Shown here: positions 2,375 through 22,610 of the stretch, in pieces
Position numbering within the stretch: the first letter of the stretch is position 1
Layout: the number at the start of each line of letters is the position of its first letter
Source of the DNA: a virus
IMG/VR virus record: IMGVR_UViG_3300030331_000645
Coordinates: 1-23,683 of that record
DNA: 23,683 nt
Direction: 5' to 3' (one strand)
Notes under the pieces: model-generated
What the model was told of the DNA's origin: nothing
Databases searched by the model: none
The model's input: only the letters and a program-made list of their open reading frames with translations
Program-made: the position numbers and the translations under genes

Positions 2375-2835
2375 ATCGTTTCCTTGTCGGTCCGGCCCTT
2401 CGGGGCCGGTACTGTTTCAAGTTTCTTTTTATAATGATCCAGAACAAGAGGTCGCAAAGACGCAAACAAGGACGCAAAGTCGCAAGCTCGCAACGTGTAA
2501 AAAGGTGCAAGCTCGCAAAGTCCTTGATCCTTTAATCTTGCACCTTGATCCCCTCGAAATAAAAATAGATCCCCCCAAAAGAGGTGCTTTACCAAGAAGA
2601 AATTTAACCCACCACTTACAGAATACTTATAATTCCAAGCCACTTGATGTGGAGAGATGTTTACTGCGTTGCTTTTGGTTGTCTTTAACTCACACCAGAA
2701 AGGCAACCCACCCCAAAGAAAATGTACGTCTGGTATGCCACCACCATTTCTATTTTCTATCCTCGTTGCTATCATGTTCGAGGGCAAGTTTCTCTTCATC
2801 TGTTTCCAAAGATTGCTCTCCATTCCCTTGCTCAT
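2371..2835 (-). CDS. VRR-NUC-like PDDEXK endonuclease
   Basis: A 154-residue protein. Residues 8-70 carry the VRR-NUC nuclease pattern: an early helix, a Glu (E27), GIPDV with D36, then CELK (E49, K51) and SPHQ (Q64) followed by an aromatic helix. VRR-NUC enzymes are structure-specific or single-strand nucleases, common in phages beside replication or packaging genes. ATG 2835 is used; AAGGA lies 9 nt upstream. The gene overlaps the 3' end of terS by 86 nt in another frame. The last 50 or so residues are atypical, because they are translated through the CGCAA repeat block (2451-2517) and the UUCG hairpin; the native domain may end earlier. The alternative of a Holliday-junction resolvase role cannot be excluded. 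Confidence 0.75.
   Translation of the reverse strand: MSKGMESNLWKQMKRNLPSNMIATRIENRNGGGIPDVHFLWGGLPFWCELKTTKSNAVNISPHQVAWNYKYSVSGGLNFFLVKHLFWGDLFLFRGDQGARLKDQGLCELAPFYTLRACDFASLFASLRPLVLDHYKKKLETVPAPKGRTDKETI
2392..2430 (+). terminator. cUUCGg tetraloop terminator
   Basis: CCGGCCC (2392-2398), TTCG loop, GGGCCGG (2403-2409), followed by TACTGTTTCAAGTTTCTTTTT. The C(UUCG)G loop is the classic extra-stable tetraloop. It serves the + strand transcript ending at 2374 but lies within the last codons of the opposing nuclease gene. Confidence 0.65.
2451..2517. repeat. CGCAA repeat cluster, block C
   Basis: CGCAA recurs at irregular 8-13 nt steps: GTCGCAAAG, GACGCAAAC, GACGCAAAG, GTCGCAAG, CTCGCAAC and CTCGCAAAG, with one GTGCAAG variant. 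It is the same core as copies A and B but lies inside the 3' coding part of the minus-strand nuclease gene. Confidence 0.65.
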
Positions 2836-3292
2836 TTGTTATGTCCTTATATGTTCCATCAACTAGAAATGCTTGTGGATATTTACGTTGTAAATCTGCA
2901 AGTCTTGATACGATTTCATCTCTTGATAGTTGGTCTATGTTATGAGTTGTTTCTCTTCTATCAATAGTAAGACCACCAAGAGCAGAACGAATTTTTTCTG
3001 CGTTGATCGCAGCAGAAAACTGTCCTTCTTCTTCAGCACCAAGAGAAAGTTTATGCAACCTTTCAAGTTGACCAATGAGAGTGACACCATATCTTCTTTC
3101 TCTTTCTTCTCGAAGCTCAGTTATGTATGCCAGTACATGTGGATAATCTCTGCCATTCAAAAGTCTGGACGCATGTTCCTTGGCTCTTTCAATATTGTAA
3201 CCAGCAAGCCTAGCGCATTCTGCGTTACTATAAATTCCCTCGACTATTTTCTCAGCGAATGTCTTCTGTCTATTCGTAAGTTTATTTTCCAT
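2750..3292 (-). CDS. terS: terminase small subunit
   Basis: A 180-residue protein. The N-terminus reads LTNRQKTFAEKIVEGIYSN, then AECARLAGY, the characteristic helix-turn-helix start of terminase small subunits, which recognise the packaging site and recruit the large subunit. The middle (ERERRYGVTLIGQLERLHKL, about residues 65-85) is the helical oligomerisation region, followed by LGGLTIDRRET. The C-terminal tail is acidic (ETDEEKLALEHDSNEDRK), as usual for the segment touching the large subunit. No large subunit is in the window; it may lie beyond an edge. The promoter region upstream is full of GTAAAC boxes. The ribosome binding site is AAAGG about 9 nt before ATG. Confidence 0.85.
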   Translation of the reverse strand: MENKLTNRQKTFAEKIVEGIYSNAECARLAGYNIERAKEHASRLLNGRDYPHVLAYITELREERERRYGVTLIGQLERLHKLSLGAEEEGQFSAAINAEKIRSALGGLTIDRRETTHNIDQLSRDEIVSRLADLQRKYPQAFLVDGTYKDITNEQGNGEQSLETDEEKLALEHDSNEDRK

Positions 3293-3301
3293 ATAGGGAC
3301 C

Positions 3302-3392
3302 TTTATAAGAAATTTTGTAAACAATGTAAACCTATGTAAACAAGTGAGGGCATATATAAAAGGTTTGGTTTACGGTGTTTACGGTGTTTACA
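3302..3392. promoter_or_regulatory. inverted GTAAAC/GTTTAC box array
   Basis: TGTAAAC occurs at 3316, 3325 and 3335. The inverse GGTTTAC or TGTTTAC occurs at 3367, 3376 and 3385, at 9-10 nt steps. An AT-rich centre (CATATATAAAAGG) separates the two halves. On the minus strand the 3325 box gives TTTACA, 17 nt from TATAAA (3307-3302), a plausible terS promoter. This looks like a multi-site operator or an iteron-type origin between divergent genes. Confidence 0.7.
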
Positions 3393-3479
3393 AGAAAAAC
3401 CACTTGGAAAAAAATAAAATTATTTTTTCTGGTAAAACATATATAAAGTGTAAATCTGTAAATTGTTTTATAATACCTC

Positions 3480-3507
3480 TTGACATATATTATAACAACA
3501 TTATATT
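3480..3507 (+). promoter_or_regulatory. strong promoter for the 3546 operon
   Basis: TTGACA (3480-3485), 16-nt spacer, TATATT (3502-3507, 5 of 6). The surrounding 3400-3545 is extremely AT-rich, including a 9-bp A/T palindrome near 3408-3428. It drives rightward genes from 3546. Confidence 0.65.
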
Positions 3508-3545
3508 TGAGATATCTTTTAATTATTACAAGGAAGGAATCAATT

Positions 3546-3950
3546 ATGATTACAAAGATAGATAAGAATGAATGTCGTATCATTAGAGATGCAATAGTAA
3601 ATGCTTTGAAAGATGTAGAGAATACTCTAGGTCTTGAGATCAATCTAGGAAGTGGTAGGTTTGATGAAGATTGTCTGACCTTCAACAAAGTAAGTTGCAA
3701 GGTTCGAGGTGCTAAGTCACAAGAACAGAAAGACTTAGATTGGGTTTTAACTACCACCCATGCTTATGACAATGTAGACTTTGACAAAGTATTTTCTTAT
3801 CAAGGTAAGAAGTTCAAAGTTTCTGGCTTCAATATGAAAGCAAGGACTAATCGTTGGAACGTAGTCGATACTCTTACTAACAAACAGTATAGAATTAATG
3901 ATGACACATTGAAAGCATGGTTCACAAAGGACAAGGCATCATGCGAATAG
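3546..3950 (+). CDS. conserved small phage protein
   Basis: A 134-residue protein from ATG 3546, with AGGAAGG just upstream and a good promoter. Residues 1-45 form an amphipathic helix then a strand (NALKDVENTLGLEINLGSGR). The C-terminal half has FKVSGFNMKARTNRWNVVD and KQYRIND. From memory this layout (helix, strand, a short GxK motif, then a Kx-hx-Gxxxxxx-R-x-xxh segment) is common in marine phage hypothetical proteins found near replication genes; no function is assigned. It is the first gene of the coupled operon, and its stop overlaps the next ATG by 10 nt. Confidence 0.75.
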   Translation: MITKIDKNECRIIRDAIVNALKDVENTLGLEINLGSGRFDEDCLTFNKVSCKVRGAKSQEQKDLDWVLTTTHAYDNVDFDKVFSYQGKKFKVSGFNMKARTNRWNVVDTLTNKQYRINDDTLKAWFTKDKASCE

Positions 3951-4536: not shown

Positions 4537-4717
4537 AAAGAGAAAAGATACTTACTACCTTAAAGTTCGAATAACTTATGAGGATGTAGTCAAGGTGAAA
4601 GCTAGAAGTTATGTTGAAGCTGCCACCAAAGCAGAACAATCTGTTTACGACAGAATGAATGATGAGGTAGAAGGACATGCAGAGATACAGGAGTGGTCAG
4701 ATGAGTTCCACCACTAG
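4526..4717 (+). CDS. 63-residue unidentified protein
   Basis: Starts at ATG 4526 or 4529 behind GTGGGG. The product is lysine-rich (MSKKRKDTYYLKVRITYED), then a helix (SYVEAATKAEQSVYDRM) and an acidic end. The strand-helix-strand pattern VRITYEDVVKVKARSYVEAATKAE resembles many small phage proteins with a beta-alpha-beta unit. No family assigned. It overlaps the methyltransferase start by 17 nt; that gene's ribosome binding site lies inside it. Confidence 0.6.
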   Translation: MMSKKRKDTYYLKVRITYEDVVKVKARSYVEAATKAEQSVYDRMNDEVEGHAEIQEWSDEFHH

Positions 4718-6140
4718 ACTTAGACATGTAGATTTATGTAGTGGCATAGGTGGTTTCAGCTTGGGATTTTCTTGGGCTGAACTATCTAAGACCATTATGT
4801 TCTGTGACACAGAGAAGTGGTGCAGACAAATACTTAACCAAAATTTTCCAAATATACCTATAGCTACAGATGTAAAGGAGTTAGCTAATGATCCAGAAAG
4901 ACTTGTTCCAGACCACGACATCCTCACAGCAGGATACCCATGTCAACCCTTCTCCGTCGCGGGACTTAGGAAAGGCGAAAAAGATGACCGCCACATCTGG
5001 CCGGACATCTTTAGAATTGTTACATTCAAAAGACCCACTTGGTGCGTTTTCGAAAACGTTTATGGTCACGTTGCCTTGGGCCTCGACAAAGTGTTGTCTG
5101 ACATGGAAAGCCAAGGCTACGCCACAAGGACGTTTATTGTACCAGCTTGTTCCAAAAATGCTCCCCATAGGAGAGATAGATTATGGATCGTCTGCAAAAA
5201 TGTGGAGGACTCCAATAGTGGACGACTCGAAGAACGTAACTCCAAATCCCAAGAGGCATCAAGGTCTGTACGCACAAGTGCAAGAGACGGGGATGGAGAA
5301 ACTTTGGGCGACACCTCGAGTGGGGGGAGAGGAAGGCTTCGAGTCAGTAGAGAAGAGGTTGGGGACTCAAGCAGCCAAGAAGCACAATCTGTACTCGCAA
5401 GTTCAGTACGAGGAGATGTGGGCGACACCCAACACAATGGATCATCTACCCCCAAGATCAGAGGAAGCAACGAAGAAGATGCAAGAGGGTCACAGAAAGG
5501 GGAGATCCAAGCCAAGCAATCTGAGGGAACAAGTGGACGAGGACACCATGAAACTTTGGCCCACACCAAATGCTTGGGATGGGAACAGAGGACCGAGATC
5601 CAAGGAGAATTTGATCGAGAAGAACCATCAGATCAATCTAATCTCAGCGGTGAAGGACGCAGAAGATCCAGAACCAGTTCACATGTGGCCCACACCTCGA
5701 GCCAAGGAACCGGGAAGGACGACCAAAGGTTATGGGAGAGGTCTGAAGGAGTTGGTCGAGGGGAAGGAACAACTATGGCCCACACCTCGAGCAAGGGATT
5801 ACAAGGACGGGACCTCGATACCACCTTCGATCAAGGAAGGGAAGAGGAGTCACAACTTGGGTACGAAAGTACAAGAGAAGATGTGGCCCACACCATCAGC
5901 CAACGAGGACGCGGCGGGTCAACCCGGTGGGAAGATGCAGAAGATGTTGGGCAACCACCCAGAATTAGGGAAGACGAAGGGATCTGGTTCTCTGAACCCA
6001 ACGTGGGTCGAGTGGCTCATGGGGTATCCAAGAGGGTGGACCGTCTTAAAGGACTAGGCAATGCCATAGTACCTCAGTTGGCAATGCAAATTGGATTAGC
6101 AATTAAGAAGGAGATTGATAATGACAAGCATACGAAGTGA
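4701..6140 (+). CDS. dcm: DNA (cytosine-5-)-methyltransferase
   Basis: A 479-residue C5 cytosine methyltransferase transferring methyl from S-adenosylmethionine to DNA. Motif I DLCSGIGGF (11-19), motif IV GYPCQPFSVAG with catalytic Cys81, motif VI ENV (118-120), motif VIII HRRDRLW (156-162), and motifs IX/X RVDRLKGLGN to AIVPQLA (about 445-461) are all present, so catalysis looks intact. ATG 4701 is preferred: AGGAG lies 7 nt upstream. Between motif VIII and IX, where the target recognition domain should be, is about 275 residues of low-complexity Ser/Glu/Arg/Gly sequence with repeated VAHT or GDT words. The same DNA encodes a second open frame (4888-6057). The gene is visibly more GC-rich than its neighbours, which suggests acquisition or dual coding. 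Confidence 0.9.
   Translation: MSSTTRLRHVDLCSGIGGFSLGFSWAELSKTIMFCDTEKWCRQILNQNFPNIPIATDVKELANDPERLVPDHDILTAGYPCQPFSVAGLRKGEKDDRHIWPDIFRIVTFKRPTWCVFENVYGHVALGLDKVLSDMESQGYATRTFIVPACSKNAPHRRDRLWIVCKNVEDSNSGRLEERNSKSQEASRSVRTSARDGDGETLGDTSSGGRGRLRVSREEVGDSSSQEAQSVLASSVRGDVGDTQHNGSSTPKIRGSNEEDARGSQKGEIQAKQSEGTSGRGHHETLAHTKCLGWEQRTEIQGEFDREEPSDQSNLSGEGRRRSRTSSHVAHTSSQGTGKDDQRLWERSEGVGRGEGTTMAHTSSKGLQGRDLDTTFDQGREEESQLGYESTREDVAHTISQRGRGGSTRWEDAEDVGQPPRIREDEGIWFSEPNVGRVAHGVSKRVDRLKGLGNAIVPQLAMQIGLAIKKEIDNDKHTK
4888..6057 (+). CDS. nested W-x-T-P repeat protein in the +1 frame of dcm
   Basis: A 389-codon open frame wholly inside the methyltransferase gene, shifted +1. ATG 4888 has a textbook AAGGAG (4875-4880) with 7-nt spacing. 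Residues 50-95 include PLGAFSKTFMVTLPWASTK and CLTWKAKATPQGRLLYQLVP. Seven W-x-T-P units follow, with Trp at 106, 140, 178, 224, 267, 297 and 333, most preceded by (N/G)LxxxV. The C-terminus is SLNPTWVEWLMGYPRGWTVL. I recall similar proteins, often labelled DNA methyltransferase, with LTWKxxATPxGRLLFQL, repeated L/W-PTP and LNPxFVEWMMGxPxGWT. No catalytic motif is visible. Translation is inferred from the SD site, the length without stops and wobble variation; the frame could still be a by-product of methyltransferase conservation. Confidence 0.55.
   Translation: MIQKDLFQTTTSSQQDTHVNPSPSRDLGKAKKMTATSGRTSLELLHSKDPLGAFSKTFMVTLPWASTKCCLTWKAKATPQGRLLYQLVPKMLPIGEIDYGSSAKMWRTPIVDDSKNVTPNPKRHQGLYAQVQETGMEKLWATPRVGGEEGFESVEKRLGTQAAKKHNLYSQVQYEEMWATPNTMDHLPPRSEEATKKMQEGHRKGRSKPSNLREQVDEDTMKLWPTPNAWDGNRGPRSKENLIEKNHQINLISAVKDAEDPEPVHMWPTPRAKEPGRTTKGYGRGLKELVEGKEQLWPTPRARDYKDGTSIPPSIKEGKRSHNLGTKVQEKMWPTPSANEDAAGQPGGKMQKMLGNHPELGKTKGSGSLNPTWVEWLMGYPRGWTVLKD
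5200..5895 (+). repeat. seven degenerate repeats in the dual-coded region
   Basis: The core RTGTGGCCCACACC or a close variant recurs with its TGG at 5203, 5305, 5419, 5557, 5686, 5776 and 5884, at 90-138 nt intervals. It reads (M/L)W-x-TP in the nested frame and (V/L/M)-(A/G/E)-(H/D)-(T/S) in the methyltransferase frame. The units are too diverged and unequal for a recent tandem expansion. Confidence 0.75.
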
Positions 6141-6721: not shown

Positions 6722-6881
6722 AGAATACCAGCTGCAGTTTCTAAGACGAGAGGTAGATCGCACTATGGAACAATGGATTGCAAAGCCGCAACATCAAGAC
6801 CTATCGAGCAACGCAAACCAGGCAAGAAAAGAATTGAAAGAATTTGTAACCAAATTAAGGAAAGAAGGAGTCAATATATGA
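6699..6881 (+). CDS. 60-residue helical protein
   Basis: ATG 6699 with a weak GGTAAGAAG upstream. The whole product is predicted helical and Gln/Glu/Lys/Arg-rich (AEEYQLQFLRREVDRTMEQW, then ARKELKEFVTKLRKEG), suiting a coiled coil. Its stop TGA overlaps the next ATG (ATGA at 6878-6881), the same coupling seen elsewhere; this packing is the main evidence. No family recognised. Confidence 0.6.
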   Translation: MRKINQAEEYQLQFLRREVDRTMEQWIAKPQHQDLSSNANQARKELKEFVTKLRKEGVNI

Positions 6882-7211: not shown

Positions 7212-7250
7212 TAGTTACCTAGAGTATAACAATTAAGGAGTAGGTAACTA
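7212..7250 (+). promoter_or_regulatory. 10-bp inverted repeat around -10 and RBS
   Basis: TAGTTACCTA (7212-7221) and its exact reverse complement TAGGTAACTA (7241-7250) flank TATAAC (7225-7230, -10-like) and AAGGAG (7235-7240). The right arm includes the first base of the next ATG. It could be an operator for the ribbon-helix-helix protein encoded next, or an RNA hairpin limiting its translation. Confidence 0.6.
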
Positions 7251-7477
7251 TGAATCCAAAGAGAGAGTTAGAAGAGTCGATGCTTCATCATCATCAGAAG
7301 AAATCCGAAAAGAAAGAGCTACCTTTTAGAAACGTAGCTCTTCTCCCGGAAGACCACGATAAGTTAAAAGCTATAGCAGTTACAGAGCAGAGAACAATGA
7401 CACGACAACTATCTGTTATTATTCGTAAAGAATACGAGAAGTATTATGATCCAGATGATACAACAGTAGGTTCATAA
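7250..7477 (+). CDS. ribbon-helix-helix (Arc/CopG-like) protein
   Basis: A 75-residue protein. After a basic His/Lys-rich N-terminus (residues 12-23) comes one strand, FRNVALLP, then two helices, EDHDKLKAIAVTEQ and MTRQLSVIIRKEYEKYY. This is the strand-helix-turn-helix order of RHH repressors, which bind operators as dimers through the paired strand. AAGGAG lies 9 nt before ATG 7250. A perfect inverted repeat overlaps its promoter and start codon, which suggests autoregulation. It could also act as an antitoxin, though no convincing toxin lies beside it. Stop and next start overlap (TAATG). Confidence 0.75.
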   Translation: MNPKRELEESMLHHHQKKSEKKELPFRNVALLPEDHDKLKAIAVTEQRTMTRQLSVIIRKEYEKYYDPDDTTVGS

Positions 7478-8881: not shown

Positions 8882-9118
8882 TTACTTCCTCTTTAACTGA
8901 TTTGATTTACCTTCTTTACCTTTTAACAATCGTTCCGGCTCCTTTGAATACCCACGTATCTGAGTGACGTTGTTACGTTTCATTGACTTCAAGAGTGCAG
9001 CTGCTACTGATCTATCCAGATCAGTATGTTTTGATACTTCTGTTGTTGCGTTCTCTAGGTTCGTCCACCCTTTTTTATAATCACATACTGCTTCTATAAA
9101 TTTTTCTTTTGACTTCAT
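8882..9118 (-). CDS. 78-residue basic protein
   Basis: The third gene of the minus-strand operon. Its ATG (9118) overlaps the oxygenase stop as ATGA. The product is Lys-rich and helical (MKSKEKFIEAVCDYKKGW, then SVAAALLKSMKRNNV, ending KEGKSNQLKRK). The middle may be a small three-helix domain, perhaps DNA-binding by its basic character, but nothing is recognisable. It ends 77 nt from the converging PAPS-reductase-like gene. That gap (8806-8881) holds only a weak TATAGCT/AGCTATA inverted repeat. Confidence 0.6.
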   Translation of the reverse strand: MKSKEKFIEAVCDYKKGWTNLENATTEVSKHTDLDRSVAAALLKSMKRNNVTQIRGYSKEPERLLKGKEGKSNQLKRK

Positions 9119-11261: not shown

Positions 11262-11822
11262 ATGACAGATATATTTGATGACATGTTTGACGCGGCTGGT
11301 GCGTTAAGTGATGTAGATGTAAACACCAGTAAAGATCTTAGCAAGTTAGTTCAGCAGTTAAAAGATACTGAGGAGCAACTTGAAAAGCTCGATCAACAAC
11401 AAAGGCACTTGAAGTTTGTTGCTCACAAGATAAAGACCGAACATATTCCTGCATTGATGGAAGAGATGGGTCAATCAAGTGGCACATTCAATGGTGTCGA
11501 AGTTAAACTTGTACAGAAAGTTGATGCTAGAATCTCTGAGGGTAAAAAGGAAGAGGCTTTTGCATGGCTCCGAAAGAATGGACATGATGGTATTATACAA
11601 AATACTATCAATCTTTCTTTTACAAAAGGAGAAGATAACTTAGCAGGAGATGCTATGGGATTGTTAAGGGATAGAGGATTTAACCCTGTGCAAAAAGAAA
11701 CTATACATGCCAACACATTGAAAAGTTTTATTAGTAAAGGTCTTGAACAAGGCATACCTATGGAACTTGATTTGTTAGGTGCGTATGTCCGTAACGAAGC
11801 CAAGATAGGGAGGAAAGTATAA
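11262..11822 (+). CDS. conserved replication-module protein
   Basis: A 186-residue protein from ATG 11262 (AGGAG upstream). Residues 22-60 form a coiled coil (DLSKLVQQLKDTEEQLEKL, then DQQQRHLKFVAHKIK). Then come GTFNGVEVKLVQKVDARI, EEAFAWLRKNGHDGIIQN and TLKSFISKGLEQGIPM plus LDLLGAYV. From memory this protein recurs next to SSB-like genes in marine phages (same VEVKLV, SEGKK, FAWLRxNGH, ETIHxxTLK, GAYV blocks), mostly without a function. The first residues, DIFDDMFDAAGA, resemble the N-terminus of its neighbour (DDIFDMAGAGAD), perhaps a shared docking segment. Stop and next start overlap (TAATG). Confidence 0.75.
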   Translation: MTDIFDDMFDAAGALSDVDVNTSKDLSKLVQQLKDTEEQLEKLDQQQRHLKFVAHKIKTEHIPALMEEMGQSSGTFNGVEVKLVQKVDARISEGKKEEAFAWLRKNGHDGIIQNTINLSFTKGEDNLAGDAMGLLRDRGFNPVQKETIHANTLKSFISKGLEQGIPMELDLLGAYVRNEAKIGRKV

Positions 11823-12610
11823 TGGCAACAGCAGTAGCACAAGTAAAAGGAGTATCAGTTTCAACTGAGATGGCTGATGATATATTTGATATGGCAGGAG
11901 CAGGTGCAGATTTCTCAAGTGATGAGATGCAAATGCCCTTCATTAGAATAGCACAAGCTATGTCACCAGAAATTAAGAAGTCTGATGCTAAGTTTATCGA
12001 AGGATGTGGACAAGGTGATATCTTTAATAATCTTACCCAAGAATACTGGGGTGAGGGTGTTGAGGTAATACCATGTTACGTTCAAACCAAGTACACCGAA
12101 TGGGTATCACTTGATGATGGTGGTGGATTTGTAGGTGAGATATCTCCTACAGACCCGGTGCTTCAGCAAACTACTCGTGAAGGTAGCCTTGAAACTTTAC
12201 CTAATGGGAACGAGGTTGTTAAAGCTGACAACTATGTTGTGTTGGTAAAGTCTGGTGATGGTTCTTGGACACCAGCTATACTTGATATGAAAAGTACAGC
12301 ACTAAAAGTTAGTCGTAGATGGAAGACACAAATCAATCTACAAACTATCACACATCCAAAGACTAAGAAGATTGCTAAGTGTCCTATCTTTGGAAACATC
12401 TGGAAACTCAAGACCGTTGAGGAAACCAACAAACAGAATCAAACTTACTTTAATTATTCTGTGACTAAGGTTGGTCTTATTGAGGATGCTGACTTGTTTA
12501 CCCAGGCTAAAACATTACATGTTTCTAGTTCTAAAGGTGAAGTAAAGACAGATGCTCCAGAGCAAAGTCAAGCGAACCCGTCAACTGATACTGACGAAGT
12601 TCCATTCTAA
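11822..12610 (+). CDS. ssb: probable single-stranded DNA-binding protein
   Basis: A 262-residue protein. The central region has QMPFIRIAQAMSPEI, FIEGCGQGDIFNN, EGVEVIPCYVQTKYTEWV, VVLVKSGDGSW and SRRWKTQINL, a conserved phage beta-rich pattern. The last 40 residues are low-complexity and end TDTDEVPF. This matches the acidic D-x-x-P-F tip of bacterial SSB, which recruits replication partners. Phage proteins of this type sit beside primase and helicase genes. An OB fold is inferred from strand content and tip, not proven; it could instead be an annealing or Gam-like accessory factor. It has no promoter of its own and is coupled by TAATG to the preceding gene. Confidence 0.6.
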   Translation: MATAVAQVKGVSVSTEMADDIFDMAGAGADFSSDEMQMPFIRIAQAMSPEIKKSDAKFIEGCGQGDIFNNLTQEYWGEGVEVIPCYVQTKYTEWVSLDDGGGFVGEISPTDPVLQQTTREGSLETLPNGNEVVKADNYVVLVKSGDGSWTPAILDMKSTALKVSRRWKTQINLQTITHPKTKKIAKCPIFGNIWKLKTVEETNKQNQTYFNYSVTKVGLIEDADLFTQAKTLHVSSSKGEVKTDAPEQSQANPSTDTDEVPF

Positions 12611-14146
12611 ATGATTCACGCACAAGAAATGCTTGCCGCCTTTGAGGGATCGAGGGCGGCTCATGGCACTACCCATGTTGGAAGAGTTGGTAGGAACGGC
12701 AAGGCTGATGCTGATAGCCGGATTGTGCGTGAGCCATTGACTACGGATAAGATACAAGCACATCTTGATGGGAAGCAGGGGGTCGGAGCTATACCCATCA
12801 ATGATAAGAACGAGTGCAGATGGGGAGCGCTAGATATAGATGTGTATGACTTAGATCATGCTAGCTTACAGCAGAAGATACAGAGGTTAAAGTTACCTCT
12901 GGTGCATTGTAGGTCTAAATCTGGTGGAGCGCACTTGTTCTTGTTTCTCACCCACTATGAACAAGCATCTGTGGTACGAGAGTACCTATTAGAAATGGCA
13001 GTTGCCTTGGGTCATAGTGGGAGTGAGATTTTTCCAAAGCAAGATAAGATACTAGCAGATCGAGGTGATGTAGGTAACTTTATTAATTTACCATATTTCA
13101 ATGCAGATGAACCAATGAGATATTGTTTCAACAAAAAAGGTGAGGCAATGGAACTTGAAGAGTTTGTAAAGTTCATACAGAAAAGCAAAGTATCTACAGA
13201 CAAACTAGAAAAGTCTACTGTATCCGGGAAGAGAAAGTATTTTTCTGATGGACCTCCATGCTTGGAACATCTGTTTGCTAATGGTCCAAGTGGCGAGGAT
13301 CGAAACAAGAAGTTATTTATGTGTGGTGTTTACTGCAGGTTAAAGACACCAGATGATTGGGTTAAGGAATTTGAAACTATGAATAGGCAAATGTTTACAA
13401 CTCCATTAGATGCCAAGGAAGTGATGAACTTACAGAAGTCTTTAGATAAGAAAGAATATTTTTATACGTGTGAACAAGAGCCATTCAAAAGTTATTGTGA
13501 CAAACAACTTTGCATGACCAGAAAGTATGGGGTAGGAGATGATGGACCAGAGATGCCAGCTATTGGTAGCTTAACTATCCTATTATCAGAACCACGATTG
13601 TATTTTATGGACGTTGGTGGACAGAGAGTTCAGTTATCTACAGAACAGCTGCAGAACCAACTGCTATTTCAACGTGCTTGCATGGAACAAATACTGGAGA
13701 TGCCACCAACTATGCGTCCTAACAAATGGAATGCAACTGTATCTAAACTATTGAAGGATGCAACTAAGTTAGAAGTACCAGAAGAACTAACCATTAGTGG
13801 TCAGTTCGTAGAGTTATTACAAACGTTCTGTACAAGTAGGATCAAAGCTATGCACCCGGAAGAAATGAATCATGGCAAGCCTTGGACAGATGAAGGGGTA
13901 ACCATGTTTACTATGCCAGGTTTGATGGAGTTCTTAAACAATCGTAGGTTTACCCACTTCACCAGAGCGCAGGTTCAAGAACAACTTAAACGTTTGAACA
14001 ACGATCAAACGTGTCATGGACATAAGAGTGTCAAGAAAGAGAATGGTGGTAGAACCACGATACGAGTGTGGTGGGTTCCAGAATTTAAAGTAGAAGAAGT
14101 GGAAATGAAAGTAGAGGACATGAGCAATGACGAAATACCCTTCTAA
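12611..14146 (+). CDS. archaeo-eukaryotic-type primase (PrimPol-like)
   Basis: A 511-residue protein starting directly after the SSB-like stop. Motif I is CRWGALDIDVYDLD, with D75 and D77 as metal ligands. Motif II is SKSGGAHLFLF (S104, H108). Motif III may lie in GSEIFPKQDKI and RGDVGNFINLPYF. This order defines archaeo-eukaryotic primases. A Cys-rich segment follows at about 280-310 (YTCEQEPFKSYCDKQLCMTR), as in PriCT-type or zinc-binding C-terminal domains. No Walker A helicase is fused. The C-terminus NDEIPF imitates an SSB tip. It synthesises primers for the Pol A encoded downstream. It resembles the primase domain of TOTE elements, but the partner genes differ. Confidence 0.85.
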   Translation: MIHAQEMLAAFEGSRAAHGTTHVGRVGRNGKADADSRIVREPLTTDKIQAHLDGKQGVGAIPINDKNECRWGALDIDVYDLDHASLQQKIQRLKLPLVHCRSKSGGAHLFLFLTHYEQASVVREYLLEMAVALGHSGSEIFPKQDKILADRGDVGNFINLPYFNADEPMRYCFNKKGEAMELEEFVKFIQKSKVSTDKLEKSTVSGKRKYFSDGPPCLEHLFANGPSGEDRNKKLFMCGVYCRLKTPDDWVKEFETMNRQMFTTPLDAKEVMNLQKSLDKKEYFYTCEQEPFKSYCDKQLCMTRKYGVGDDGPEMPAIGSLTILLSEPRLYFMDVGGQRVQLSTEQLQNQLLFQRACMEQILEMPPTMRPNKWNATVSKLLKDATKLEVPEELTISGQFVELLQTFCTSRIKAMHPEEMNHGKPWTDEGVTMFTMPGLMEFLNNRRFTHFTRAQVQEQLKRLNNDQTCHGHKSVKKENGGRTTIRVWWVPEFKVEEVEMKVEDMSNDEIPF

Positions 14147-14342
14147 GCTAATGAAAGTTAGTGAGATATCAGAATGGTTAAACGTATCTGAAGCAGCCAT
14201 ATATAAGTGGGTGAATGAAGAACGTTTTCCAAAGCCAATTAAGTTTGGCGAAGAAGATAACAAGCGACAATCTTCTCGATGGGTCCGAGAGGACATAGAG
14301 AATTGGTTGGAACAAAAGAGAACCAGAAGCCAATTTGAATGA
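14127..14342 (+). CDS. AlpA/excisionase-like helix-turn-helix protein
   Basis: A 71-residue protein. LMKVSEISEWLNVSEAAIYK, then WVNEERFPKPIKFG and SSRWVREDIENWLEQKR form the winged-helix AlpA/MerR-like module: a helix-turn-helix, a short wing (RFPKPIKFG), and the WVREDIENWL closing helix. Such proteins act as transcription regulators or recombination directionality factors. ATG 14127 overlaps the primase end by 20 nt (GAGG about 10 nt upstream); 14151 is another start. Its location inside a replication operon, with no integrase in the window, makes a regulatory or accessory role more likely. Overlaps the next gene as ATGA. Confidence 0.8.
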   Translation: MTKYPSKLMKVSEISEWLNVSEAAIYKWVNEERFPKPIKFGEEDNKRQSSRWVREDIENWLEQKRTRSQFE

Positions 14343-18025: not shown

Positions 18026-18273
18026 AAAATCCTTGGAAGAATTTTAAAGTTGATAAGTGTTTGGGGTTGAAACAAATGCACCCAATGCAGGTAGAAGCCT
18101 TGATGGATTTCATTGGTCTTAGTCTTATGGCAGGTGCAGAATCGGGAGAGGATGATCTAATGGATCAGATAGAAAACAAAGCAGACGAACTTATTCGTAT
18201 GTTTGGTGGGTCTGGTATTAGAATAAAAACTACAGATGATTTACCAGATGGTTTCAAGAAAGGATTACATTAA
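18022..18273 (+). CDS. 83-residue unidentified protein
   Basis: ATG 18022 overlaps the polymerase stop (ATGA) with GGGGAG upstream. The sequence MHPMQVEALMDFIGLSLMAG, then ESGEDDLMDQIENKADELIR, suggests two or three helices and an acidic surface; Met and Asp are frequent. No family recognised. It is the last gene of the replication operon. Its stop codon shares TTAA with the opposing 1446-residue gene, so no separate terminator fits between them. Confidence 0.65.
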   Translation: MKNPWKNFKVDKCLGLKQMHPMQVEALMDFIGLSLMAGAESGEDDLMDQIENKADELIRMFGGSGIRIKTTDDLPDGFKKGLH

Positions 18274-21200
18274 CCAGTAATCTTGGCGATGGTCTGTGTG
18301 TTTGGATTGTCGCCTACAATAATAGGGTTTGTTCTAATGTTAGGATTGGTTGTGCTACTCATAGGTATTGGTACGAAGTTATCGTTGTTCATAGGTATTG
18401 GCACAAAGTCGTTATTGTCCATAGGTATTGGTATGAAAGGTTCAGGTTTAGGTTTAGGTGGCTCTACAGGTATAGGATTAAAGTCTGTAGCTTCTGGATC
18501 CAAACTTATTCCGGCCATACTTTCTTGTACTTGTGATATTGCTTCTTCTGGTAAAAGATTTAAAGTTCCTTTTTCACCTAACTTTCGTATGTCATCTCTG
18601 GATATCCTGTATGGCGTAAACTCACCATTAAGTATACTTAATGCTCCACCTATTTTATTCTTTTTTAGTATAGATCCTATGTCGTCCTCACTTAAACCTA
18701 ACTCTTTAAAGTCTTGTATTATCTGATAGTATCGTCTGTCAGCACGTAACTTATTATTATTTGCTGACACAAAAGCATCAAAAAGTTGACCTGAACTTAT
18801 GTTTGCATCATCAGTTAAACTACTAAATTCTGTCTTAGCTTCTTTTTGTAGTTGTGACATTTCATAGGCTTTAAATTTAAACCCTTCTTTAATATCAAAC
18901 TCTTGTGGACTTACACCAAATAGAGATGAAATAAGTTGCTTTGGTCCAAACTCTCTACCTATTTTATTTTTAGGAGATACAAAGTCTGGAGCTATTTGAC
19001 CTACTGTTCCACGTATTACTTTCTTTGGTTCTACTTTAGTTTCAAAAGGACTTAGTGGATTTAATTTTTCAAATGTAAATGGAACAAAGTTTGGTACGAC
19101 AGTATTAATAACATGTGCTATTTGTTTACCTAACTTATCTCCGGGTTGGTCTGAATTTAAGTATATCTTTGCACCAGTTGCGGTTTCGTTCTGAATGAAA
19201 GCATCTACCATAGCCTCAGTTAACATGGCTTCTGATATAAAAGGTTCTGCAAACTCATACAATGCACCACCCATAACGTTTCTAAATACTTCTTCTGTAT
19301 TGGAGCCAGCCTGTTCCGCTTTATCTGTTTCTCTTAGTAGGCGAACAATGGAACGTGATATGGTGTCATAAGGATTTAATGTACTAAAGTTTACATAAGA
19401 TAGCTTACCATCTTCCATACCTAATGGAAGTAGAGTAGCTCCTCTTTCCCAAGGTGCGCCTGCTGATTGTTGATAGGCTTCCATCTCTTCTCTTGTAACA
19501 CCAGTAATTTGGTGCATAATTTCTTTTGCAGCAGTAGGAACAGCTATAGTTGTGCCAAGTAAACCAAGCATTCTTTGTCTACCTCTAGCTCGTATCCCCG
19601 CTATATCAGATGCCATGTCATCTAGAGCCTGACGCATGATATTAAAACTAGTTCTGTATATCTCCATAGGGAACACAATGAAGTTACCAAATGGTAGTCT
19701 ACGTAAAGTAGAAACCAAATTAGATGCAGCTTTGTTGTAGTTTGGTACAGTATCACGAACAATCTGTGCTGCTCTATCTTTAATTAAAGTATCATACAAA
19801 CCCGGAAATTCATCAAAGTTAAATTTAGGCACTCCATAACCACCTTGAGATATTGGTTTGTTTAAGCCTATATCTCTAGCAAATTGTGGATCTACCATAG
19901 AAGCTGATCTAATTCTATCACCTTGAAGAGTATCTTTAGCTCTACGTAGTATGCTAAGTGTGTCTGGATCTAGGTCTTTATTACCTTTAGTTAGATAATT
20001 AATTTTTGTAGCATCATCCACACCTTCCAAAGCATACTTTAGTTTGGCTATCTCCGCTTGATAAGAATAAAACTTCCAAAGATCATCTGCACCTTGATAA
20101 AATTCTTCAGCAAGTTTGGTTCCTTTTAAAGCAGTTGTAACACCAGGTGCGCTCCTAACTTTTTTTGCCATTGACTCTCCAAGTATAGCGCTCATGCCAT
20201 CTTGGTTAGCCATATCTCGTTGAGATGTAATAATACCTTTTCTTAAACTATCTTGTATCTCTCTTAGTTCTGTATTCGTACCAAGTATACCTCTTCGTCT
20301 AGCATCTTCCAGTTCTCTTAGCACACCTTCATCACCCATTCTACGTATGTTAGCAGTAACCGCTACGGTTGCATCACGTAAGCTACCACCTCTACCAAAT
20401 ACTGGAATGTTTCCATTAGCAGTAGCAAATGCACCAGCAGTAATAAGGTTTCTTATTTGTGTGATTGGAGATAAAACTGTTTTAGAATACTGAGATAATG
20501 CTTTACCACGTAAGAAAGCATTAGCTAAATACTTTATACCTCTTGCACCTAATGTATCATCATTAGCAATAAACCTAGTTAGATCATTATAAATATCTTT
20601 TGGAACATAATAACCATCTAGTTGACCCCACCCTTGTTGGTTCAACCTCTTAAACATTTCATCTTGTTGTCCTACTTGTTTAGCAATGCTTTGAGCATCT
20701 CCAGTACCAAGTTGCACGTACCCTTTTTTTATTAAATCATCTTGCAAAAACTTATTGTTAGCTACCATTTGTCCATCAATGAATAACTCTCTAAGCAATG
20801 GACTTTCTTTAGATAAGTTAGCAATAGTACCAAAGTATTCATCAACAGCTTTAAATTGTGATAGGTCAGCAATAGTAGTTAGATATGCTTCTCTTGGATC
20901 TTTAACCTCACCCATCAAGGCTCTTAATGTTTTTGGAAGTTCAGTTCTGGTAACAAAGATACCAGTATCTAGTTTATCTCTAGCCACTCTTTGTATACCA
21001 GATTTTCCTCCACTCACATACCCACTATGATTAAACACAGTATGTCTATCTAAAAAAGATTTTCTTGCTAACTCCGCTAGTTCTTGTGTAACTTCACCAT
21101 TAATTTTTACTGCACCTGCTTCTGTACCTTTGTTACTAACAGTAATATTATTTCTTAAAATAAAGTCTGGTGTGAACTTCTTATCAAATACATCTGTCTT

Positions 21201-22610
21201 AGCAAGTGTGGTTAGTTCATCCTCTGTATATTTTCTATTTCTTGTAAAAAAATCATCTGCAGCTTTTACTGATTCTTCAGTAGGTGTATACTTGCTATCT
21301 GTATATATCTTGTAGTTTCTTCTAAGGTAACTACCAAGACCTTTTTGTATTACATCTTCTACGTTTAATCCATCTGGAGTTACATATCCTGCTTGTTTTA
21401 AGAAATCACTTTTTAGAATATCATTACTTAAACTATCAACATGTTTTCTCATTCGTATAACAGGTTGTCGTACATTTTGAGGTAGTTCAGAAAGTATTCT
21501 TGCTTTTATACCTGCATCTTTCTCCAACAAATAATCATCAATTCTATTAATAAAGTAAACATCTGTTAAAGCTCCTTGATTAGAAGGTAAATTATTTAGT
21601 GCAACTTTAATTTCTTTATCAACATCTTTTAATATATTCTCTGCTTTAAATAAATCGTTCTGAATTTTTGGATCTAATCTTAATCTTTGTTCAGCTATTC
21701 GATCTGGTAAATAACCTCTGTATCTTCCAAATGCTAAAATTCCAGCTAAGTTGTTTGCAAAAGCACTTTGACTATCTGGATCTGTCATCCTTTTATAAAT
21801 TGTTTCGTCTATGTTTTTAGCCATAGCATTGAGCGCGCCACTTGCTTTTTGAGTAATGGTCTGACCAGTTTCAGTTCTAGCAAGTGCTTGACCACCTTTT
21901 CCTGCACCATACAAAGCACTACCTATTGCTCCACCTAGTACATTAGATTCTGCAAAAATTTTAGCTTTGTTTAAAAGCCTAGCCATAGCTGCTTCTCTAC
22001 CTTCTAATCCAATTAAGTCAGTAGTTTTTGCGGGATCAAACCCAAGCCAATCACCAATAACTGTACTGGCTTGGTCATCTGCAACTATAGTTTCTACCCC
22101 TGCAAATATAGCACCGTCTTTTACAAACTGACCAAACTTTTCCGATTTAGTTTTAGGTACAACTCTTGCTGCTTTACCTACCTTAGATGCAATATTTACT
22201 GCACCAAGACCCGGTGCAAGGTATTGAGTTACAAACTCCGTGCCTTTACCTGCAATACCTTCTGGATTTATGTTAAGGGATTCTCTTAGTTTGTCACCAC
22301 CTCTATCTATTGCACCTCCAAGGTCACTACCCACTACAAGATCTGGAACAAGAGATACTAAACCACCAATACCTTCCAGAATACCAATGCCACCAGAGAT
22401 AAGACCTTCGCCCGCTTCTCCTATTGGTTTTGTAACTCGTTCCACCATTGTATCGTAGCCATCATCAAATCCAATAATGTTATCTGCAATCTCATAGAGG
22501 ATAGAACCCGTTGGATTACGTTCTGTCTTTGGATCATAGGGGATAGGTACAAACGTATCTTTGTTTGTGTTTACCTCAACTGGTATAGGAACAAAAGGTT
22601 TATCTGCCAT
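18270..22610 (-). CDS. 1446-residue probable virion-associated protein
   Basis: The longest gene. Both ends carry F-x-P-I-P words: residues 6-10 and 20-24, then 1377-1381, 1392-1396, 1402-1406 and 1412-1416. A Gly-rich hydrophobic stretch (GLISGGIGILEGIGG, then LVSLVPDLVVG, about 70-98) could insert in or lie against a membrane. The middle is long, charged and helical, like phage internal or ejected proteins. Around 1000-1070 are PFGNFIVFPMEIYRTSFN and GLLGTTIAVPTAAKEI. No lysozyme or catalytic motif was found. Its size, its leftward orientation with the next gene and its place away from replication genes suggest a structural or injected protein. From memory similar 'polyvalent' proteins exist in marine phages, but the role is unassigned. 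Confidence 0.75.
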   Translation of the reverse strand: MADKPFVPIPVEVNTNKDTFVPIPYDPKTERNPTGSILYEIADNIIGFDDGYDTMVERVTKPIGEAGEGLISGGIGILEGIGGLVSLVPDLVVGSDLGGAIDRGGDKLRESLNINPEGIAGKGTEFVTQYLAPGLGAVNIASKVGKAARVVPKTKSEKFGQFVKDGAIFAGVETIVADDQASTVIGDWLGFDPAKTTDLIGLEGREAAMARLLNKAKIFAESNVLGGAIGSALYGAGKGGQALARTETGQTITQKASGALNAMAKNIDETIYKRMTDPDSQSAFANNLAGILAFGRYRGYLPDRIAEQRLRLDPKIQNDLFKAENILKDVDKEIKVALNNLPSNQGALTDVYFINRIDDYLLEKDAGIKARILSELPQNVRQPVIRMRKHVDSLSNDILKSDFLKQAGYVTPDGLNVEDVIQKGLGSYLRRNYKIYTDSKYTPTEESVKAADDFFTRNRKYTEDELTTLAKTDVFDKKFTPDFILRNNITVSNKGTEAGAVKINGEVTQELAELARKSFLDRHTVFNHSGYVSGGKSGIQRVARDKLDTGIFVTRTELPKTLRALMGEVKDPREAYLTTIADLSQFKAVDEYFGTIANLSKESPLLRELFIDGQMVANNKFLQDDLIKKGYVQLGTGDAQSIAKQVGQQDEMFKRLNQQGWGQLDGYYVPKDIYNDLTRFIANDDTLGARGIKYLANAFLRGKALSQYSKTVLSPITQIRNLITAGAFATANGNIPVFGRGGSLRDATVAVTANIRRMGDEGVLRELEDARRRGILGTNTELREIQDSLRKGIITSQRDMANQDGMSAILGESMAKKVRSAPGVTTALKGTKLAEEFYQGADDLWKFYSYQAEIAKLKYALEGVDDATKINYLTKGNKDLDPDTLSILRRAKDTLQGDRIRSASMVDPQFARDIGLNKPISQGGYGVPKFNFDEFPGLYDTLIKDRAAQIVRDTVPNYNKAASNLVSTLRRLPFGNFIVFPMEIYRTSFNIMRQALDDMASDIAGIRARGRQRMLGLLGTTIAVPTAAKEIMHQITGVTREEMEAYQQSAGAPWERGATLLPLGMEDGKLSYVNFSTLNPYDTISRSIVRLLRETDKAEQAGSNTEEVFRNVMGGALYEFAEPFISEAMLTEAMVDAFIQNETATGAKIYLNSDQPGDKLGKQIAHVINTVVPNFVPFTFEKLNPLSPFETKVEPKKVIRGTVGQIAPDFVSPKNKIGREFGPKQLISSLFGVSPQEFDIKEGFKFKAYEMSQLQKEAKTEFSSLTDDANISSGQLFDAFVSANNNKLRADRRYYQIIQDFKELGLSEDDIGSILKKNKIGGALSILNGEFTPYRISRDDIRKLGEKGTLNLLPEEAISQVQESMAGISLDPEATDFNPIPVEPPKPKPEPFIPIPMDNNDFVPIPMNNDNFVPIPMSSTTNPNIRTNPIIVGDNPNTQTIAKITG
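18360..18431 (-). repeat. 30-bp tandem repeat coding for FVPIPM decapeptides
   Basis: CATAGGTATTGG recurs at 18360, 18390 and 18420, an exact 30-bp period. On the minus strand it codes F-(V/I)-P-I-P-M plus four mostly Asn/Asp residues, three units near the C-terminus of the 1446-residue protein. Confidence 0.8.

Follow-up and report, generated by a model that had tools for sequence, protein, structure and literature searches.

The six-box array between terS and the operon beginning at 3546 of a 23.7-kb IMG/VR phage contig (the window, that is, the whole stretch analyzed) very probably forms the core of a replication origin, in which the boxes would act as iterons and the phage-encoded AEP primase would bind them through its C-terminal winged helix. 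The comparison of related phages showed the array, its geometry, the concerted switching of its boxes, the covariation between boxes and primase wing, and the exclusion of neighboring proteins as readers. From this comparison, we infer that the primase physically binds the boxes and that the array acts as an origin, as well as the order of loading and the cause of the switching. Among the three options given in the preliminary description, an iteron-type origin that melts in an AT-rich region was favored over a cooperative repressor operator and a terminase recognition site. The array and its surroundings in the window consist of the following elements.

2750..3292, minus strand: terS, neighbor of the array (Pfam Terminase_2)
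3316..3341, plus strand: left arm, three TGTAAAC boxes at 3316, 3325 and 3335 (repeat positions in the sequence)
3342..3367, no strand: center between the arms, GGGCATATATAAAAGG; TATAAATAAGG-like in relatives (sequence)
3368..3391, minus strand: right arm, three GTTTAC boxes at 3368, 3377 and 3386, steps of 9 and 9 nt (repeat positions in the sequence)
3400..3545, no strand: A-tract, AT-rich stretch (79% A+T), candidate DNA unwinding element (base composition)
3450..3463, plus strand: a pair of degenerate GTAAAT boxes starting at 3450 and 3458 (sequence; absent from the preliminary description)
3480..3507, plus strand: sigma70-like promoter candidate of the right operon, TTGACA-N16-TATATT (sequence motif)

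The GTAAAC hexamers of the left arm start at 3317, 3326 and 3336, with steps of 9 and 10 nt, and a T precedes each of the three. When the whole window was scanned, GTAAAC was the sole 6-mer with three direct copies (8–12 nt steps) facing three inverted copies, and none of 100 dinucleotide-preserving shuffles yielded a 3+3 array. The array is flanked by terS on the minus strand and the ORF at 3546 on the plus strand, so that the coordinates of the six-box array between two divergent operons were confirmed. The extreme AT-richness described for 3400–3545 was also borne out, as the AT-richest 150 nt of the window begin at 3407 (81% A+T). Similarly, the array-adjacent stretch was the AT-richest of the genome in G033 and G035, and it was weaker in G028, G046 and G056. 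In relatives, one or two extra cognate boxes are located just past the AT-rich stretch, where the window has the degenerate GTAAAT. Short direct repeats near helical phasing and an adjacent AT-rich region, both expected of an iteron-type origin, were thus present. The cumulative GC skew, which is confounded by gene direction, had its minimum at the array in only one of the genomes tried (G046). A −35-like TTTACA, an element noted in the preliminary description, was seen inside one box and faces TTATAAA in the direction of terS. Separately, G053 (8900–9100) and other relatives carry a conserved CTCTGG...CTATATAG motif that recurs in mirror image on either flank of the array, whatever the box class.

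To compare relatives, 80 related loci were collected by a TerS search. The array was found beside terS in many marine phages as a single copy per genome, and elsewhere the cognate box occurred at background frequency. The box steps were 9–10 nt, and the distance between the arms was 30–32 or 41–43 nt, one helical turn apart. The array has six boxes, or up to eight or more when flanking copies are counted. The letters of the boxes were variable, and in the terS-upstream regions of relatives every box of an array changed in concert. The classes were GTAAAC, GTAATC, GTACTC, GTTCTC, GTATCC, GTCCTC, GTCATC, GTCAAC and TGACTCA/TGACGCA, and a subgroup with a different array layout had the boxes TGGGAACC. 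Conservation of boxes and spacing in related phages, which the preliminary description had made decisive, was therefore found for the geometry but not for the letters. The boxes inside one array were near identical, although some arrays were mixed; phages with GTAATC often had one GTAAAC box, and the box specificity is therefore not absolute.

The switches occurred between phages otherwise approximately 97–100% identical, and the spacers and flanks were kept. Examples are the close pairs L216/L237 (GTCATC vs GTATCC) and L241/L253 (GTTCTC vs GTAAAC), the close trio G055/G058/G059 (GTAAAC vs GTACTC vs GTTCTC), and the close pair G060/G056 (GTAAAC vs TGACTCA), in which the DNA was approximately 98% identical across the shared replication region. 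Such box-by-box switching in otherwise near-identical phages points to a partner protein that varies together with the boxes. The DNA-binding proteins of the phages were compared across the switches. Apart from TerS, two small proteins were of interest.

7250–7477: RHH protein (core DNA-binding candidate)
14127–14342: AlpA-like HTH protein (Pfam Phage_AlpA)

TerS, the AlpA-like HTH protein and the RHH protein were 99.5–100% identical across box switches; therefore, none of the three reads the boxes. TerS was 100% identical in the different-box pairs L032/L034, L073/L081 and L057/L064. Its recognition-helix region (about residues 31–46) differed strongly between TerS proteins that were nearly identical elsewhere, but this variation was independent of the boxes. 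These results speak against a packaging (pac) site recognized by TerS and make it highly improbable, although terS adjoins the array and the complete contig G001 ends in a repeat containing the array. This 56-kb contig (L133–L135) has a 306-bp terminal direct repeat, and several other long contigs stop near the array; such ends may mark the terminus of the genome or a variable site at which the assembly broke. The terminase recognition site of the preliminary description was accordingly not supported.

An operator bound by a phage repressor or activator, with the AlpA-like HTH or the RHH protein in this role, would fit direct repeats phased at promoters, and both proteins are core DNA-binding candidates. 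However, both were 100% identical between L216/G046 (GTCATC) and L237/G053 (GTATCC), the HTH protein was identical in all three box classes of G055, G058 and G059, and the RHH protein was identical in G060 and G056. The chance of such an operator is therefore very slight, and the cooperative repressor operator proposed earlier for the small HTH/RHH proteins was not upheld. Other candidate readers were rejected as they were unchanged across switches, were missing in some phages or varied without following the boxes. In the right operon, the first gene is variable but does not track the box class, its protein being nearly the same in L246 (GTAAAC) and L241 (GTTCTC). A small wHTH family (fam41), the fam14 protein, the OB-like protein at 6773, the DNA methyltransferase and the large virion protein were likewise rejected. 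A phage single-subunit RNA polymerase had been suspected from TATAG-like motifs, and no match was found among the large unknown proteins searched.

What singled out the primase was a slightly lower conservation than that of its neighbor proteins, with 96–97.6% identity in close switch pairs. The relevant parts of its gene, which is located approximately 9 kb from the array, are given below, with residues numbered according to the 511-aa ORF of the window.

12611..14146, plus strand: AEP primase and proposed initiator, 511 aa, phrog_21866, with an AEP-TOTE domain at residues 41–173 (Pfam, Foldseek)
13883..14080, plus strand: C-terminal winged-helix domain, residues 425–490, proposed box-binding domain (covariation and predicted fold)
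14021..14023, plus strand: codon of residue 471 (His in the window), follows box position 4 better than any other residue, though imperfectly
14027..14029, plus strand: codon of residue 473 (Ser in the window), tracks box position 5
14057..14059, plus strand: codon of residue 483 (Thr in the window), tracks box position 3

The AEP/PrimPol catalytic domain was recovered as AEP-TOTE by Pfam and as a CAPP PrimPol by Foldseek; AEP was the sole domain found by Pfam, with neither a TOPRIM-type primase domain nor a fused helicase domain. In the AlphaFold model, the solved structure nearest to the N-terminal AEP domain was the Marinitoga CRISPR-associated Prim-Pol (E=2.6e-9). The C-terminus was predicted as helix-helix-wing, with helices at 435–444 and 452–462 and a hairpin at 469–475/481–490 (moderate confidence, pLDDT 74–88). 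On this modeled hairpin, residues 473 and 483 should face each other across the two strands, because the strand limits give 473+483 = 475+481. A PDB fold search with the winged-helix domain alone returned no significant match. As a minor observation, the C-terminal tip of the primase, NDEIPF (14126–14143), is kept in relatives and resembles the acidic tip of SSB, as does the DEVPF end of the neighboring protein (11822–12610).

The C-terminal winged helix of the primase followed the boxes, for example GVQNIVKAKGKRTNIRCW in L216 vs GIQHVTKKKGQRTTIRCW in L237. Covariation was determined from 21 full primases paired with arrays, in an alignment of 519 columns. Residue 473 corresponded to box position 5 (Ala or Ser with A, Asn with T, His with C) and was the sole column separating A from non-A there. 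Residue 483 corresponded to box position 3 (Thr with A, Asn or Lys with C, Lys or Ile with T) and was the sole column separating that position. For box position 4, residue 471 was the best column, yet an imperfect one, and this position was only partly decoded. Each of the best-tracking columns for positions 3, 4 and 5 was inside the wHTH. When shorter records were included, 30 array-wing pairs obeyed both the 473 and 483 rules; the wing search pattern required R-S/T-x and therefore selected the usual wing form. The exception, missed by this pattern, was G024 of the divergent subgroup (GTACTC, other array layout), which has Gln483 with A at position 3 and obeys the 473 rule.

The distribution of changes in switch pairs pointed to the same domain. 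Primase changes inside vs outside the wHTH block numbered 12 vs 2 in L259/L288, 7 vs 5 in L236/L299, and 11 vs 5 in L391/L256, while same-box neighbors had no change inside the block. On a tree of the 21 primases built without the C-terminal winged-helix domain, the box labels were scattered, with 11 changes compared with a mean of 11.6 for shuffled labels. Box position 5 and residue 473 each changed six times on this tree. Independent pairs agreed in 5 of 5 cases for position 5 with residue 473 and in 4 of 4 for position 3 with residue 483, numbers at which a sign test cannot attain p<0.05.

The residue rules also allowed a prediction. The wing of L398 (Ala473, Asn483, Val471) predicted the then-unseen class GTCAAC, and a later pattern scan found L455, in which a 3+3 GTCAAC array lies beside the family terS, with flanks of the L398 sub-clade. 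As the wing and the array are on different contigs, this result is supportive rather than a closed test, and the GTCAAC array pattern also matched other, unrelated contigs. A GTTCAC array, predicted from the L267 wing, was not seen beside the family terS among the matches listed. Convergent hexamer arrays of similar geometry (GTCAAC, GTTCAC) occur in other phages, namely L449, L469, L570 and L632.

The covariation bears on two further explanations. Neutral homogenization of the boxes (gene conversion, template switching), with no protein to match them, could yield near-identical boxes within one array, but the spacers between the boxes were not homogenized and primase residues 473 and 483 follow the boxes; this explanation is extremely improbable. 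Alternatively, the primase wHTH may bind the boxes while the site acts mainly as a transcriptional switch of the divergent operons (autoregulation, early/late timing) and replication starts elsewhere. The location between divergent operons, with promoter-like elements overlapped or flanked by boxes on both sides, is consistent with such a switch. However, the covarying protein is a primase and no regulator, and it is encoded far from the array; the AT-rich A-tract stretch suits an origin, and the other promoters lack further box clusters. Thus, a mainly transcriptional role was considered unlikely.

Under the preferred reading as an iteron-type origin bound by the primase, several primases would sit on one face of each arm, as the boxes are one helical turn apart and the arms converge. 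The beta-hairpin of the wing would read the inner box bases, with residue 473 contacting position 5, residue 483 position 3, and residue 471 probably position 4. The primases would load beside the AT-rich stretch, the proposed starting point of melting and primer synthesis, and separate phage helicases and the DNA polymerase would join after melting and priming. Joint changes of all boxes and the wing have recurred among these phages and would yield origin/initiator pairs that differ from one another. We lean modestly towards a broader proposal, in which the phages belong to one extended family of replicons that are incompatible with one another. Iterons and primase wing would switch jointly, one base at a time, by a residue-base code that can be read, and would have done so at least 11 times across the 21-primase tree, presumably under antagonism from superinfecting relatives, satellites or origin-directed nucleases. 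Specificity would then be set by the wing hairpin, not by the recognition helix.

Known systems resemble the proposed origin in part. In P4 alpha, the winged helix binds origin repeats, and unwinding and priming follow (PMC4234260). Here, too, a primase with a predicted C-terminal winged helix would bind short repeats of a probable origin. However, the P4 alpha primase is of the bacterial (TOPRIM) type and is fused to a helicase, and the primase studied here is therefore no member of that family; the convergent 3+3 array with many switched box classes is a further difference. In mobile elements, the AEP primases PolpTN2 and PrimQH have been proposed to recognize the origin by their C-terminal WH (PMC5862659). 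The combination of AEP domain and C-terminal WH is alike, but that proposal was speculation from structure modeling, whereas box-residue covariation supports the present one, and the AEP match here is AEP-TOTE/CAPP-like. The AEP primase ORF904 of pRN1 also has a C-terminal winged helix, but the pRN1 origin contains a large stem-loop and lacks iterons (PMC4234260), unlike the iteron-like array. In the PLE satellite, the RepA_N initiator covaries with the origin iterons, and in PLE-ICP1, swapped origin/RepA modules are selected by an origin-directed nuclease (PMC8263062). The covariation of an initiator DNA-binding domain with iterons is shared, and nuclease selection of this kind is a plausible model for why the pairs switch. 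In contrast, RepA_N is no primase and has only two, module-swapped specificity groups, whereas individual bases and a few residues switch here. The cultured primase relatives MW202510, JeffCo and DSL-LC04 lacked an array of this kind. A distant primase relative, Klebsiella phage VLCpiS6a, has three CCGTTCCA repeats with 8-nt steps just upstream of the primase gene (L404, 25424–25447).

Origin recognition by the C-terminal WH of AEP primases, formerly a proposal, is now directly supported by comparison and is given a residue-level code. In these uncultured phages, the primase sequence allows the origin to be located and the box class to be predicted. The repeated origin-initiator switching in near-identical phages provides a natural system for the evolution of protein-DNA specificity and is also suited to asking why phages diversify their origins. 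Two other variable features were observed. A long WPTP-repeat ORF overlaps the cytosine methyltransferase ORF in a different frame (4677–6140, 4888–6057); 16 relatives retain this pair of ORFs, and the WPTP repeats are shuffled between G021 and G024. The large virion protein (18270–22610) shows 27–36% identity between phages approximately 97% identical elsewhere, such as G058/G059, which suggests that it is frequently replaced.
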